NCBI RefSeq assembly: GCF_000317535.1 | Contig: NC_019757.1 | Coordinates: 3,240,501 to 3,304,500, forward strand | Origin: Cylindrospermum stagnale PCC 7417 | GTDB taxonomy: Bacteria; Cyanobacteriota; Cyanobacteriia; Cyanobacteriales; Nostocaceae | DNA length: 64,000 nt | Direction of reading: 5' to 3' | Shown: positions 3,088-8,390 of the stretch, piece by piece | How the letters are laid out: every line of letters starts with the position of its first letter | Position numbering within the stretch: the stretch's first letter is position 1 | The notes under the pieces: generated by a model | Told to the model about the DNA's origin: nothing | The model's input: the letters and a program-made list of their open reading frames with translations, nothing else | Databases searched by the model: none | Made by a program: the position numbers and the translations under genes

Positions 3088-3149
3088 TTGTAGTAAGGAC
3101 TTCAGTCCTGAAAATTCTTGGCTAAAGCGAGAAATCACTCACTAAAAAC
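3088..3149. repeat. REP-like element (degenerate right half)
   Basis: Starts TTGTAGTAAGGACTTCAGTCCT, matching the left half of the better-preserved elements at 5410 and 6146: a GTAG foot followed by a short palindrome. The right half, ending CACTCACTAAAAAC, is degenerate. It lies in the pilin-GT41 spacer. Confidence 0.6.
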
Positions 3150-3187: not shown

Positions 3188-5416
3188 ATGAACACCGAAA
3201 CTTCTCCAAATACACTCACCCAAGCGCAACAGCACCTAATAGCAGGACAATACGAACAAGCCGCCAATTTATATGAACAAGCAATAGCATCTGAACCCGA
3301 TGTAATTTCCCACTATTGGCATTTAGGTTTAATGCTGCTTTTACAAGAAAAAGAAATAGAAGCGCAAATGACTTGGATGCTGCCATTAGCAGATGTAGAA
3401 GAAGAAAATATTCCAACTTATACGCAAGAACTAACCCAAGTTTTACAACTAGAAGCAGAAAGACGGGAAAATCTAGAAGAATATTCTCTCGCTTGGGCAA
3501 TTCGTCAGCACATCAAAGAAATTAATAATTACGATATAAATAACCTCTTAAAACTTCTGCACCTTTCCTTCAAAATAGACAATTTTGAAGAAATACAATT
3601 AGAGTATATTGAAATTATTGAATTATTAAATTCCCAAAACTTTGTAGCTTTGAATTTAGAGTTATTACAGCAAGTCTTACAGCAAATTTTTAATACTCCA
3701 CCATTAAATCAAGAATCTATAGACTTTATCCAATCTTGTTTACCCTACGTTATCACTACGCCAGATTTTGCTGATATATTTTCCGCCGCTGTGATGAAAA
3801 TCGGTCACACATTTGCACAGCCAGCAAAAGCCGCAAGTCTTTTAGAATTATATTTAAACCAAGCGCCAATTAACTCAGAGACATTATTAGACATATTAAG
3901 GCATTTAGCTACTTTTTATCAAAATGCTAAAAATTATGCTCTAGGTATAGAAAAAGCAAAATTATGTCTTTCCTTATCTACAAAACTAGTTGATCAAATT
4001 TTTGCTACTCATCTAGTGCTAAGAGGTTTGTTGACTGCTGGTGGATATTGGGAAGAGATATGCTCAACAAGCCAACAATTGGAAGCTTTACGACAAGAAT
4101 TTATCACAGCCCAGCCAATTCCCTTAGATGAAGCAAAAACTCTACTTCTATTAACACCATCTTTTGCTAAACCTCACATTGAGGATAACCCATCAGATTT
4201 TAGAAAAATTCATAATCCACTAGCAGCAATTTGCCAGAACAATATTCAAGCTATATATCATCAACCATTTCAGCGTTATTCCCAGCGTAATATTAATTAT
4301 CGACAAACATCAACTTATAATAAAAAGTTAAAAATTGGCTATGTATCTTATGTTCTAAAAAGGCATTCTGTAGGTTGGTTAGCACGCTGGCTATTTCAAC
4401 ATCACAACCGCGATAAATTTGAAATTTACACTTATCTGATCAACTATAATCCAGTTGATCAATTTGCAGAAGAATGGTTTGTAAATAAAGCTGATAAAGC
4501 TAATAAATTAGGCATAACAGTTTTAGAGGTTTCCGAAAAAATATATGAGGATGATATCGATATTCTAATAGACTTAGATAGCATCACTCTAGATATTAGT
4601 TGTGCCGTAATGTCACTAAAACCGGCACCAATTCAAGTTACTTGGCTCGGTTGGGATGCCTCTGGTATACCTGCAATTGATTACTTTATTGCTGACCCTT
4701 ATGTATTACCAGATTCAGCCCAGAATTATTATACAGAAAAAATCTGGCGATTACCCCAGACTTATATAGCCGTTGACGGCTTTGAAGTCGGTATCCCTAC
4801 ACTGCGTCGTCAAGATTTAGATATTCCTAGTGATGCTGTCGTCTACCTCAGTAGCCAAAGGTCATATAAACGTCATCCAGAAACCACAAAATGGCAAATG
4901 AGAATAATTAAAGAAGTACCAAATAGTTACTTCTTAATTAAAGGAGACGCTGACGAAGAAGCAATTAAACAGTTTTTCTACAAAATAGCTGAAGAAGAAG
5001 GTGTAGATTCTTCCCGGCTGCGATTTTTGCCTCAAGACCCCTCTGAAGCTGTCCACAGAGCTAATTTAGCAATTGCAGATGTTGTACTAGATACTTTTCC
5101 CTACAACGGAGCAACAACAACCCTAGAAACACTCTGGATGGGTATCCCCTTAGTAACCAGAGTTGGAGAGCAATTTGTGTCTCGTAACAGCTACACCATG
5201 ATGATGAATGTAGGTGTAACAGAAGGTCTTGCTTGGACAGATGAAGAGTATGTAGAGTGGGGTGTGCGCTTGGGTAAAGATGCTGGTTTAAGACAACAAA
5301 TTGCTGGGAAACTGCGACAATCAAGACAAACAGCCCCTCTGTGGAACGGTAAACAATTTACCCGTGAAATGGAGAAAGCCTACGAGCAAATGTGGCAAAC
5401 ACGCTCAAGTTCGTAG
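3188..5416 (+). CDS. TPR-containing GT41 family (SPINDLY/OGT-type) glycosyltransferase
   Basis: GT41 enzymes transfer GlcNAc or other sugars from a UDP/GDP donor to Ser/Thr of proteins in the cytoplasm. Of 742 residues, the first ~310 are helical TPR-like repeats (the first is residues 12-45). The catalytic half starts near residue 380 with KIGYVSYVLKRHS (conserved His), then QVTWLGWDASGIPAIDYFI, SSQRSYKRHPE (candidate donor-binding Lys), and the sugar-nucleotide loop DTFPYNGATTTLETLW. All are GT41 hallmarks. It lies downstream of the pilin, separated by a terminator and a REP-like element. The TAG stop codon is inside the REP element that starts at 5410, so the last residues may be repeat-derived. 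The acceptor protein is unknown; the pilin is one candidate. Confidence 0.88.
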   Translation: MNTETSPNTLTQAQQHLIAGQYEQAANLYEQAIASEPDVISHYWHLGLMLLLQEKEIEAQMTWMLPLADVEEENIPTYTQELTQVLQLEAERRENLEEYSLAWAIRQHIKEINNYDINNLLKLLHLSFKIDNFEEIQLEYIEIIELLNSQNFVALNLELLQQVLQQIFNTPPLNQESIDFIQSCLPYVITTPDFADIFSAAVMKIGHTFAQPAKAASLLELYLNQAPINSETLLDILRHLATFYQNAKNYALGIEKAKLCLSLSTKLVDQIFATHLVLRGLLTAGGYWEEICSTSQQLEALRQEFITAQPIPLDEAKTLLLLTPSFAKPHIEDNPSDFRKIHNPLAAICQNNIQAIYHQPFQRYSQRNINYRQTSTYNKKLKIGYVSYVLKRHSVGWLARWLFQHHNRDKFEIYTYLINYNPVDQFAEEWFVNKADKANKLGITVLEVSEKIYEDDIDILIDLDSITLDISCAVMSLKPAPIQVTWLGWDASGIPAIDYFIADPYVLPDSAQNYYTEKIWRLPQTYIAVDGFEVGIPTLRRQDLDIPSDAVVYLSSQRSYKRHPETTKWQMRIIKEVPNSYFLIKGDADEEAIKQFFYKIAEEEGVDSSRLRFLPQDPSEAVHRANLAIADVVLDTFPYNGATTTLETLWMGIPLVTRVGEQFVSRNSYTMMMNVGVTEGLAWTDEEYVEWGVRLGKDAGLRQQIAGKLRQSRQTAPLWNGKQFTREMEKAYEQMWQTRSSS

Positions 5417-5473
5417 TGAGGACTTTAGTCCTCAAAAGAGTAGGAAGAAAGCACTGAAGTGCTTACTACAAAC
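5410..5473. repeat. REP element 1 (two facing palindromes)
   Basis: TTCGTAGTGAGGACTTTAGTCCTC, an 18-base spacer, then GCACTGAAGTGCTTACTACAAAC. Each half is a short palindrome with GTAG/CTAC at its outer foot, the signature recognised by RAYT transposases in other bacteria. The left foot supplies the TAG stop codon of the GT41 gene (5414-5416). The element sits just beyond the stop of the RAYT gene that starts at 6125. Confidence 0.85.
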
Positions 5474-5486
5474 ATTAAGACGAACA

Positions 5487-6125
5487 TTAAAAATTATCCC
5501 AATTCTTACCATAATCTAACACCGGATATTGCACCCAAGAATCACGCAGCCATTGCCGTCCACAAGTTTGTAAATACCAATGAACACTACTTTCAACCCA
5601 GTCATACGGAGATTTAGTTAAACCATGTTTCACTGGGTTGTAATGAATATAATTAAGAGTCGTATAGTAATGTCGTTCAGAGCGAATAGCTCGATCACTC
5701 CAAGAATACCAAATTTTTCGTTTAGTGATATTGTCCTCTAAATTCCATTGACGTGAAATAGAACCATGTATCCTGCGAAATAATTCACTCAATTCATCAA
5801 AATCTACAACCTGAACTAGCAAATGATAATGATTAGGCAAAATCACCCAACCACAAATTCTTAAGTTCGTAGTAAGCACTTCAGTGCTGATTTCTTCACT
5901 TACACTATTACTATTACCAAACATATCAAATATCATATTTAGCAGATGCTGCCGGCGAAATTCAGAGTGTATATAACACTGATGTTCGTAACAAGCAGCA
6001 GTCAACAGGTAAAGTGGTCTATCTCTGACTAGATGTGGTGGTGAGTGTGGTGGATAGCCTCTATTTAGACGATATTGAACTAGTTCAGCTTGTTTTTCTG
6101 GTGTGAGTTTACGATATTCGTACAT
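5487..6125 (-). CDS. REP-associated tyrosine transposase (RAYT, IS200/IS605-like Y1)
   Basis: Single-domain HUH nuclease of the TnpA_REP type, which cuts and joins single-stranded DNA at REP palindromes and is usually non-mobile itself. The 212-residue protein shows the HUH motif in WVILPNHYHLLVQ (about residue 105) and the C-terminal helix NYIHYNPVKHG that carries the catalytic Tyr in this family. REP elements flank it on both sides (5410-5473 and 6146-6206). Unusually, a REP half (5864-5890) lies inside the reading frame, encoding roughly residues 79-88 just before the strand leading into the HUH motif. The frame is open through it. Whether the protein is active is unknown. Confidence 0.88.
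   Translation of the reverse strand: MYEYRKLTPEKQAELVQYRLNRGYPPHSPPHLVRDRPLYLLTAACYEHQCYIHSEFRRQHLLNMIFDMFGNSNSVSEEISTEVLTTNLRICGWVILPNHYHLLVQVVDFDELSELFRRIHGSISRQWNLEDNITKRKIWYSWSDRAIRSERHYYTTLNYIHYNPVKHGLTKSPYDWVESSVHWYLQTCGRQWLRDSWVQYPVLDYGKNWDNF
5864..5890. repeat. REP half-element inside the RAYT coding sequence
   Basis: AGTTCGTAGTAAGCACTTCAGTGCTGA matches, on this strand, the reverse complement of the right half of the REP at 6180-6206, including the GTAG foot and the GCACT/AGTGC palindrome. It is in frame within the transposase gene, contributing residues read as ISTEVLTTNL. Confidence 0.85.
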
Positions 6126-6130
6126 GAATT

Positions 6131-6206
6131 TACTACGAACCTTGTGCTTGTAGTGAGGACTTAAGTCCTCATCTTTAAATCAGCACTAAAGTGCTGACTA
6201 CGAACT
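6131..6206. repeat. REP element 2, upstream of RAYT, with an extra half
   Basis: The complete element is 6146-6206: TTGTAGTGAGGACTTAAGTCCTC, a spacer, then CAGCACTAAAGTGCTGACTACGAAC. A further TACTACGAAC foot at 6131-6140 looks like the end of another copy. On the minus strand its right foot provides the TAG stop of the GT41 gene at 6198. Confidence 0.85.
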
Positions 6207-8330
6207 TGATGAGCTTGTTTCCACAACTTGTTTATAGAAGGCTTCGAGACCTGCGACACAGACTTTATCATCAAAAAGGCGATCGCAATTTTGGCTCATT
6301 TTTTCAACAATACTACTCCTCCAAGCAGGGTCTAGTCCTAATTTGACAGCGATTTCGATATATTCTGCTTCGTTTTGCGCGATGGTGTCTGTCACCCCCA
6401 GCATTTTCAAGAAGCTGTCAGTGTGACGACCTCGCATAAACTCCCCTGGACAGGTAACAATGGGGAGATGACAAGCGATCGCTTCTAGGCTAGTATTCCC
6501 ACCAGACCAGGTGAAGGTATCCAGATAAACATCTGAAAGTAAGTTAATCATCAGATAGTCTAGCCGTTCTGGAATGCTGAGAAATACACAGTAATTCTCA
6601 CTATTGAGTCCGACATCAGCAAAAGCACGCTGCAAACGAGGTTTTAATAAGGTTCCACGCAGAAATACAAATTTAGCTTGAGGAACACGAAGAGCAATTT
6701 CCGCAAAAATAAAATCGTACTGCGGTAGATATTTAAAAGGCGCTTGACAGGATAAATAGATAACCGCATCATCTAGTAGCTGAAAATCTGAGCGGTTTTT
6801 GACCACTGGTGGAATATAAGGTTTGGGGTAAGAAACGCCAATATTAGGTAAGCGGATTAATTTTTCAGAGTAATGTTCTTGAGCATTTTCTGCTTCCATT
6901 AACTCGCTGGATAAAAAGTAATCAATAGTTGGTAAACCAGTAGTCACCGGATGTCCCCAAGCAACACATTGCACAGGTGCAAGTCGCAGACCAGCCATTT
7001 GCATGGTTTGCGCGTCCATACCGATTTCGGGAAAAACTAAAATATGCAGCTTATCAGCAACTATCTGTTCACAGACTGCTAACAAATTATGAGGAATATG
7101 GTGCAAAACATCACTATAATCTTGAAATTGTTGAGTAACTGCGTCAGGCTCGTTTCCTGTGTAGTAACAATAGATTTCAAAATTTTGGCGATCGCAGTAG
7201 CGTAGCCAGCCAGTTAACCAAAGTGTGCCGCTATAAGAATCTAGGTAATGAGACGCATAGCCAATACGGATTTTTTCCTGTGGCTGAAGTTTCGGCATAG
7301 ATAAAGGTACAACCCATTGCGGAAAGTTAGCCGCCATAATTTTATGTACTAACTGTCCGTATTGGCGTTGTAATTCCACATCGTTTTGAGCTTGATAAGA
7401 GAGGTAAAAATTAGTTAATCTACCTATTCCAGCTAAAGCATTAATTCTTTCTTCTGAACTGTTTAAAGATGTTTGTTGAATTAAATTTTGTAGCCCTTGA
7501 GTATATCGCTGGCGATAAATTTTAATTTCTTTTTGGTTGTCATAGATTGTGGGTACTGTTAAATATTTAAGTATTTGAAATGTATAATCACCAGGTAATA
7601 ACTGGCAAGCATTCTCTGCCTTTATAATTGCTTCTTGATTGAGTCCATGACGCCGCAAATCGATAATAAATGAAAAATGTAATCTTGGGTCTGTGGGGTA
7701 AATTCTAATTCCTTCTTCGAGTATTTGGAAATATTCATCTAGCAAATTTAAATTTCTATAGCATTGACTTAATTGCCAATAAATCTCTACATCTATTGAG
7801 TGAATTTGCATCAATATATGATATTGTTCAATAGCTGCTTGCCATCTTCCCTTTTGGAATAATTTATTACCTAAATCAAAAACTAATTGACTTAGTTGTA
7901 CATTACTAAAATTTTCTATCTCATAAGCTGGAATTTTCTCTGCTTCAAATAGTGCTAATGCTTGCAGATTTTGATGTGTTAAAATGATTAGGGCATGAAT
8001 AAAACTGGATAGATTCTTTCTTTCAAGTTCATTTAAACCTTCAAGCAGAGAAATTTCGCATTCAGTAGTCATATCAAAATTTTCTGCCATTAGTAAATTC
8101 ATAGCCACAGCAGATAAAAGGAAATTAGCTTCTTCTATGTCAATACCATTTGTATCTATTAGTAATCTCATCTGATGACTATCAGGATGATTTACTACAG
8201 CTTTTATAGCTTGTTCTAATTCTAAAAGCAGTGACTCTTCTGTTTGTTGCCAATCAGGGAAGATTATAATATTAATGTTACCTGGGGTTATAACCAAGGA
8301 CTCGAACATATATTCTTCTGTTTGGTTCAT
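6198..8330 (-). CDS. TPR/GT41-type glycosyltransferase with an N-terminal unnamed module
   Basis: Second SPINDLY-like glycosyltransferase of the island, about 710 residues from the ATG at 8330 (a GTG at 8348 is the alternative start). Residues ~5-130 form an unnamed module (INIIIFPDW ... IDIEEANFLLSAVAMNLLM) shared with the C-terminus of the GT4 enzyme encoded at 8455. TPR-like repeats follow (~140-330), then the GT41 catalytic half with RIGYASHYLDSYS, VQCVAWGHPVTTGLPTIDYF, APFKYLPQYD (candidate donor-binding Lys) and DTFTWSGGNTSLEAI. The stop codon TAG and the Ser-rich tail run into the REP at 6146-6206. It is transcribed in the same direction as the GT4 and methyltransferase genes upstream, with 124 bases to the GT4 gene, so probably co-functional with them. 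Confidence 0.85.
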   Translation of the reverse strand: MNQTEEYMFESLVITPGNINIIIFPDWQQTEESLLLELEQAIKAVVNHPDSHQMRLLIDTNGIDIEEANFLLSAVAMNLLMAENFDMTTECEISLLEGLNELERKNLSSFIHALIILTHQNLQALALFEAEKIPAYEIENFSNVQLSQLVFDLGNKLFQKGRWQAAIEQYHILMQIHSIDVEIYWQLSQCYRNLNLLDEYFQILEEGIRIYPTDPRLHFSFIIDLRRHGLNQEAIIKAENACQLLPGDYTFQILKYLTVPTIYDNQKEIKIYRQRYTQGLQNLIQQTSLNSSEERINALAGIGRLTNFYLSYQAQNDVELQRQYGQLVHKIMAANFPQWVVPLSMPKLQPQEKIRIGYASHYLDSYSGTLWLTGWLRYCDRQNFEIYCYYTGNEPDAVTQQFQDYSDVLHHIPHNLLAVCEQIVADKLHILVFPEIGMDAQTMQMAGLRLAPVQCVAWGHPVTTGLPTIDYFLSSELMEAENAQEHYSEKLIRLPNIGVSYPKPYIPPVVKNRSDFQLLDDAVIYLSCQAPFKYLPQYDFIFAEIALRVPQAKFVFLRGTLLKPRLQRAFADVGLNSENYCVFLSIPERLDYLMINLLSDVYLDTFTWSGGNTSLEAIACHLPIVTCPGEFMRGRHTDSFLKMLGVTDTIAQNEAEYIEIAVKLGLDPAWRSSIVEKMSQNCDRLFDDKVCVAGLEAFYKQVVETSSSSS

Positions 8331-8390
8331 TAATTTGCCTGGTTCCACTTGGGAAATTTTATGTAAGTAATTTTAAATAGGTTTAACTGC

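Follow-up and report, generated by a model that had tools for sequence, protein, structure and literature searches.

How does a gene thought to spread a palindromic element come to carry that element in frame within its own coding sequence, and what keeps the palindrome intact once it is there? The question is raised by a REP-associated tyrosine transposase (RAYT) gene of Cylindrospermum stagnale PCC 7417, which lies in the stretch of 64,000 nucleotides analysed here (contig NC_019757.1, positions 3,240,501 to 3,304,500; hereafter the window, in whose own numbering coordinates are given) and which has REPs both at its flanks and inside it.

The RAYT gene and its REPs

The RAYT (TnpAREP) gene lies at 5487..6125 on the minus strand and encodes 212 residues with a proline-rich N-terminus, an NHYH motif (residues 98-101) and an NYIHYNP motif. 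The identification as a RAYT, originally made from the sequence alone, was borne out: the protein matches the NCBIfam model NF047646 ("REP-associated tyrosine transposase") at 81.5 bits against a cut-off of 80, and both the HUH and the Y motif are present, with N98, H99, Y100, H101 and Y159 invariant in the RAYT alignment. A Pfam search of the protein gave no match, and a Pfam-based annotation was dropped for that reason. By the motifs tabulated in the accessible part of PMC6006769, read in the window protein and not taken from a subclass profile, the gene fits TnpAREP subclass 2.8, since NHYH, W[YH], YIHYNP, the proline-rich N-terminus and long canonical REPs are all found. A profile of 46 homologues matched the E. 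coli TnpAREP 4er8 with an E-value of 2.9e-14. In the profile alignment the insert falls just before the stretch with the HUH motif, at a site that we take to be a loop joining a helix to the HUH strand. As a member of the RAYT class, the protein is predicted to bind and cleave single-stranded REP. The genome has one full-length copy of the gene, which is under purifying selection (median dN/dS 0.16 for 402 of the 406 pairs of the 29 genes described below, insert excluded). The genome also contains another, distant RAYT-like match (L010, G000:C2:85464-85751), at 33% identity and with one TGA in the matched stretch.

A REP pattern scan places a single REP at 3090..3109 (+), upstream of the neighboring gene A742, and a facing pair (REPIN) on each side of the RAYT gene: 5413..5469 on its 3' side (5413 on the plus strand, 5450-5469 on the minus strand) and 6150..6201 on its 5' side (6150 plus, 6182-6201 minus). 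Flanking, facing REPs with a GTAG foot had been foreseen correctly. The internal REP occupies 5869-5888 on the plus strand (feature entry 5865..5888), with a GTAG foot at 5869-5872, on the strand opposite to the gene, and a 6-bp palindrome at 5875-5888. On the minus strand it encodes S80-T86, in frame, within S80-T-E-V-L-T-T-N87, and 11 residues separate S80-T86 from NHYH. The original prediction had described a REP half in frame ahead of the HUH motif; the frame and the position stood, but what lies there is a complete single REP, its 20 bases identical to those at 5450-5469.

In the window the REP pattern has seven matches at up to three mismatches (one being a reverse-strand reading that overlaps the REP at 5450), against a mean of 0.32 in shuffled sequence and with none of 100 shuffles reaching seven. 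Across the genome, 61 matches to GTAGTNAGNACTTNAGTNCT were found when up to one mismatch was allowed, of which 54 are exact; the reversed control gave 0, so that a lack of further copies, named in advance as a point against the prediction, was not observed. Exact counts by stem type are 48 for GA, nine for CA, one for CG and 0 for TG. Its GTAG foot, its palindrome and the recurrence of an identical sequence across the genome mark the internal copy as a REP. When 30 of the 61 sites were examined, two fell in an open frame of at least 120 codons, the RAYT and L044; the latter REP is near the open-frame start, at about codons 23-31, and perhaps upstream of the true start, which leaves the RAYT site alone clearly inside a gene among the 30. 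In-gene REPs look rare in the Cylindrospermum stagnale genome.

Distribution and age of the internal REP

Some RAYT match was found in 151 of 217 family genomes, many of these matches being to distant RAYTs. The insert is present in frame in all 29 best family matches (the window included; L009 and L011-L038, of which L036 has one in-frame stop and L038 begins at query residue 16) and absent from the 11 full-region family matches that were examined next in rank (L039, L188-L197). Of 80 named loci (L070-L149), 21 carry it (L070-L089 and L147, many of them the same contigs as the 28 relatives) and 59 lack it, and the claim that these residues are an insertion relative to homologues is upheld by these absences. 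Four loci with stops (L108, L126, L147, L149) were left out of the named-loci alignment and read on DNA, while L023, L026, L030 and L036, left out of the same alignment for strand, re-entered a later one. In a tree built without the insert and excluding L039 (no insert) and L149 (stops), the 29 insert-bearing genes are split from 15 of the 59 insert-free loci with support 0.995. Among eight broken RAYT copies (L180-L187), the palindrome is found in L180 and L182, no insert in L183 and L187, and the region itself is absent in four. Homologues that share the residues and lack nearby REPs, which would speak against a link to the element, were not seen among the 20 insert-bearing loci scanned (L070-L089): each has at least three GTAG hairpins, the internal copy included.

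We read this distribution as pointing to one ancestral insertion in one RAYT lineage. One REP would have been copied, once, into the REP-spreading gene in the ancestor of a lineage now present in Nostoc, Anabaena, Dolichospermum, Komarekiella, Westiellopsis and Cylindrospermum, at a loop before the HUH strand that could take about 14 more residues without harm, and self-targeting as the origin can fairly be inferred. An insertion that is recent and private to the Cylindrospermum stagnale genome is ruled out, the insert being common to the 29 closest RAYTs. The event is also less unusual than had been supposed, being by this reading an old insertion common to a RAYT lineage, and REP insertions in RAYTs have been published: as far as the available part of PMC6006769 goes, in-frame insertions predominate in subclass 2.4 and occur in "some" members of 2.8, and those of 2.4, which for the most part sit between HuH and Y, are regarded there as peripheral and as having little probable impact.

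Five of the 59 loci that lack the pre-HUH insert have in-frame, REP-derived residues immediately behind the HUH strand (L096, with two tandem copies; L136, with a perfect REP; L107 and L124, with imperfect REPs; and L108). These five inserts fall into two site and orientation classes, with both REP orientations represented, and therefore stand for at least two further insertion events, not five. Among the loci seen, REPs entered RAYTs of this group repeatedly, and always next to the HUH motif.

Regular arrays of GTAG hairpins flank the RAYTs of L095, L100, L086 and L088, with a period of about 35, 94 or 104 bp, and up to 18 hairpins were counted in one 6.6-kb RAYT locus. RAYT relatives with flanking GTAG hairpins were also found in metagenome-assembled genomes titled Chloroflexota and Deltaproteobacteria (L112, L113, L127, L129, L133, L135, L144, L148), and the group seems not to be confined to cyanobacteria.

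Upkeep of the hairpin

Of the 29 genes, 20 have all six pairs of the palindrome intact, eight have one mismatch and one has two; the perfect palindromes are of type CG in 11 genes, TG in eight and CA in one, that of the window. All 29 have the GTAG foot, which reads CTAC on the coding strand. Elsewhere in these genes such palindromes number four in 17,768 positions scanned. The stem has also changed in a paired manner. At pair 3-12, which joins two synonymous third codon positions, there are 17 genes with C-G, 10 with T-A and two with C-A, and the dependent model is favored over the independent one with a likelihood ratio of 17.4, which none of 80 null simulations reached (null 95th percentile 7.9); the count of 27 paired genes out of 29 was also reached by two of the 80. 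These simulations were added because the Pagel chi-square test, with its p of 0.002, depends on a tree whose backbone is weakly supported. For the stem as a whole, 93.6% of cells are paired vs 89.1% in shuffles and the covariation score is 0.161 vs 0.086, neither value being reached in 500 shuffles; the number of pairs with two-sided change (two) was reached by 62 of the 500 and the number of pair types by all of them, and sliding the stem by +3 gave an equal covariation score with 36.5% pairing. The stem change was compensatory, with support that comes mainly from one base pair.

Such a pattern could in principle be a by-product of codons, if the peptide SAEALTTN were conserved for the sake of the protein. 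S80, T86 and N87 are indeed invariant, and 28 of the 29 genes retain T85, but the covarying bases are synonymous third positions, residue 82 varies among E, S, K and L, the window carries T81 and V83 together, a combination that preserves the pairing, and dN/dS at residues 70-88 is 0.57 (368 pairs) vs 0.16 for the rest of the gene. We regard ordinary coding as an improbable account of the palindrome; plain protein conservation is rejected on the covarying synonymous sites.

It is harder still to believe that, genome by genome, the REP was inserted recently or was repeatedly overwritten through gene conversion by other REPs. The window might suggest as much, its internal 20-mer being equal to that of a flanking REP, and in most Nostoc-type genomes, as is usual where the stem is of type CG, a few other CG-type copies exist. 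The insert is at a homologous position in all 29 genes, however, and in eight genomes (G046, G053, G196, G199, G201, G203, G208, G211) the TG stem occurs once, inside the RAYT, so that a copy taken from another REP would not account for it in these genomes. Dispersed REPs of GA type in these eight genomes number 1-223, where "dispersed" refers to the stem types GA, CA, CG and TG, the GG type (AGGGCT..AGCCCT) standing outside the genome-wide count; in G046 and G053 even the counted types are few. Homogenisation by other REPs as the general cause is refuted by this private TG stem. For the window taken singly, gene conversion from a neighbor is possible, because the internal stem equals that of the flanking CA-type REP.

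The loop has changed from TGAA to TTCA in L013, L020, L025 and L027, which are scattered on the tree, and L014, a close sister of L020, keeps TGAA. Template switching between short inverted repeats is known to yield both homogenised arms and inverted spacers, according to the accessible part of PMC8604942; since this is the pattern seen, upkeep of the hairpin need not mean that it has a function. On balance we favor, with moderate confidence, a trapped REP whose renewal comes from template switching at the hairpin, with selection perhaps acting on the foot as well. The hairpin would form in living cells and DNA polymerase would switch template between its arms, copying one arm onto the other, which would renew the palindrome and now and then flip the loop. 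Besides the dependence of the covariation mainly on one pair and the possible gene conversion in the window, two further points stand against this account. The arms here are 6-8 bp, whereas the spacer inversions reported in yeast, in the same available part of PMC8604942, required arms of more than 9 bp; and template switching leaves the conservation of the foot unexplained, since the foot lies outside the palindrome and is not protected by it.

The foot is the place where selection may enter. Among 31 conserved four-fold codon columns, that of Thr85 (ACT) is the sole one without a synonymous change, and in L026 a Thr-to-Ser change at residue 85 still spells CTAC. As a suggestion weaker than that of template switching, the foot might be kept because the RAYT still recognises it or because the encoded Thr-Thr-Asn is needed; its conservation, at rank 1 of 31, is suggestive, not decisive.

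A stronger claim would be that selection maintains the whole internal REP as a cis-acting site, where the RAYT binds its own GTAG hairpin, in single-stranded DNA or in mRNA, and so limits its own expression or mobility. The invariant foot and its least-changing codon, the covarying stem and one palindrome-bearing pseudogene (L182) that has kept the stem and lost the foot would all suit such a site, and the TnpAREP proteins studied to date use the hairpin and GTAG, to differing degrees (PMC8266576, in its accessible part). Yet nine of the 29 genes have one or two mismatched pairs, the other palindrome-bearing pseudogene (L180) keeps both stem and foot, the foot is merely first among 31 columns, and the window hairpin is weak, at -3.6 kcal/mol (z -1.3, with 21 of 200 shuffles as good), beside the flanking REPs at -4.5 to -6.3. 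We consider a selected site of this kind rather unlikely, though it is still a live alternative to the trapped REP. That the RAYT has domesticated its own REP, with the in-gene GTAG hairpin kept in the Nostoc-Anabaena lineage by selection on DNA or RNA structure over protein sequence, as a private site of self-control, while the dispersed REPs changed their stem type, is a tentative proposal that we hold with considerable doubt. Autoregulation through a hairpin in the mRNA, as first suggested, is putative: the hairpin is maintained, yet homogenisation of its arms by template switching could do this without function.

The locus and its RAYT-free relatives

The RAYT gene lies between A742 (3188..5416, plus strand), which we take to be TPR/O-GlcNAc-transferase-like, and the convergent B716 (6198..8348, minus strand). 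In 27 of the 28 relatives, all but L030, the RAYT has an A742 homologue no more than 1.5 kb away, and 15 of the 28 have a match to B716 that spans 200 residues or more at an identity of 74% or higher. Both neighbors belong to a multi-copy family, and for that reason their orthology is inferred from position. The gene is thus not found at varying sites, as a mobile element would be, and the constant A742 homologue marks it as a resident, not a roaming copy. In Iningainema, a RAYT pseudogene without the insert (left out of the tree) lies near homologues of both neighbors, A742 being about 2 kb away; this insert-free pseudogene at the same locus, together with the kept neighbors, makes the locus look older than the insertion and the gene inherited in place. 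The TAG stop of A742 is supplied by the GTAG foot of the left REP (5413-5416), as it is in G001, G002 and G174, and a REP supplying a neighbor's stop codon is a known phenomenon (PMC3733652, as far as available).

In the same genus, no RAYT match was found in the two genomes searched, G001 and G002. Of 13 A742 loci listed, the window and G155 have the RAYT, G002, G073 and G174 have a single facing REP pair in its place, G001 has a longer degraded version at the site, G092 has REP-like pieces, and six have no REP within the 260 bases read. In G002, whose neighbor gene is 95% identical to that of the window, the left REP of the pair equals the window's left one and the spacer resembles the window's right one. 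The RAYT-free sites would be losses by recombination between the flanking pairs, though in any given genome the RAYT may never have been present. These RAYT-less congeners nevertheless have many REPs (42 GA and seven CA sites in G002, 12 GA and three CA in G001), while five genomes without a RAYT match (G003, G011, G012, G021, G025), picked from among the genomes listed and not at random, have 0-3 GA sites; REP abundance does not simply track RAYT presence.

Comparison with known systems

The window RAYT resembles the TnpAREP of subclasses 2.8 and 2.4, as given in the accessible part of PMC6006769, in NHYH, YIHYNP, a proline-rich N-terminus, a cyanobacterial host and long flanking REPs with GTAG, and differs from 2.4 in that the insertions there are mostly between HuH and Y while ours precedes HuH. 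The window RAYT may itself be among the examples of that paper, which in its available part describes no fixed insertion of ancestral origin, no covariation of the stem, no stem type private to the gene and no locus history. The E. coli TnpAREP (4er8; PMC8266576, in part) is a relative by profile match and uses a GTAG-hairpin substrate. The E. coli REPs, in contrast, have a bulged stem, where here there are short palindromes and one in-gene copy. We know of no REP copy inside the E. coli TnpAREP gene. Intragenic REPs and the Rickettsia palindromic elements (PMC3733652, in its accessible part) are likewise palindromes within genes, in frame in Rickettsia, but they lie in many unrelated genes, whereas here the host gene is the one thought to spread the element. 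Template switching in coding DNA, in what is available of PMC8604942, shares the homogenised arms and inverted spacers, though in yeast, mostly with longer arms and not in REPs.

In the literature searched, outside which most subscription papers and the supplement of PMC6006769 (Figure S10) fall, there was no report of a shared ancestral insertion, a covarying private stem, loop flips or RAYT-free sites. In-gene REPs of RAYTs are known in outline, and what is added here is the details of their upkeep.

Implications

The host role of RAYTs and the matching of REPs to their transposases are open questions of the field, and the window RAYT touches both. A resident RAYT with an old built-in REP, whose stem now differs from those of the dispersed REPs, together with RAYT-free relatives that keep the REP pair, makes a natural experiment, one that bears on the co-evolution of REPs and RAYTs, on the persistence of short palindromes in coding DNA, and on the distinction between a hairpin that is used and one that merely renews itself.
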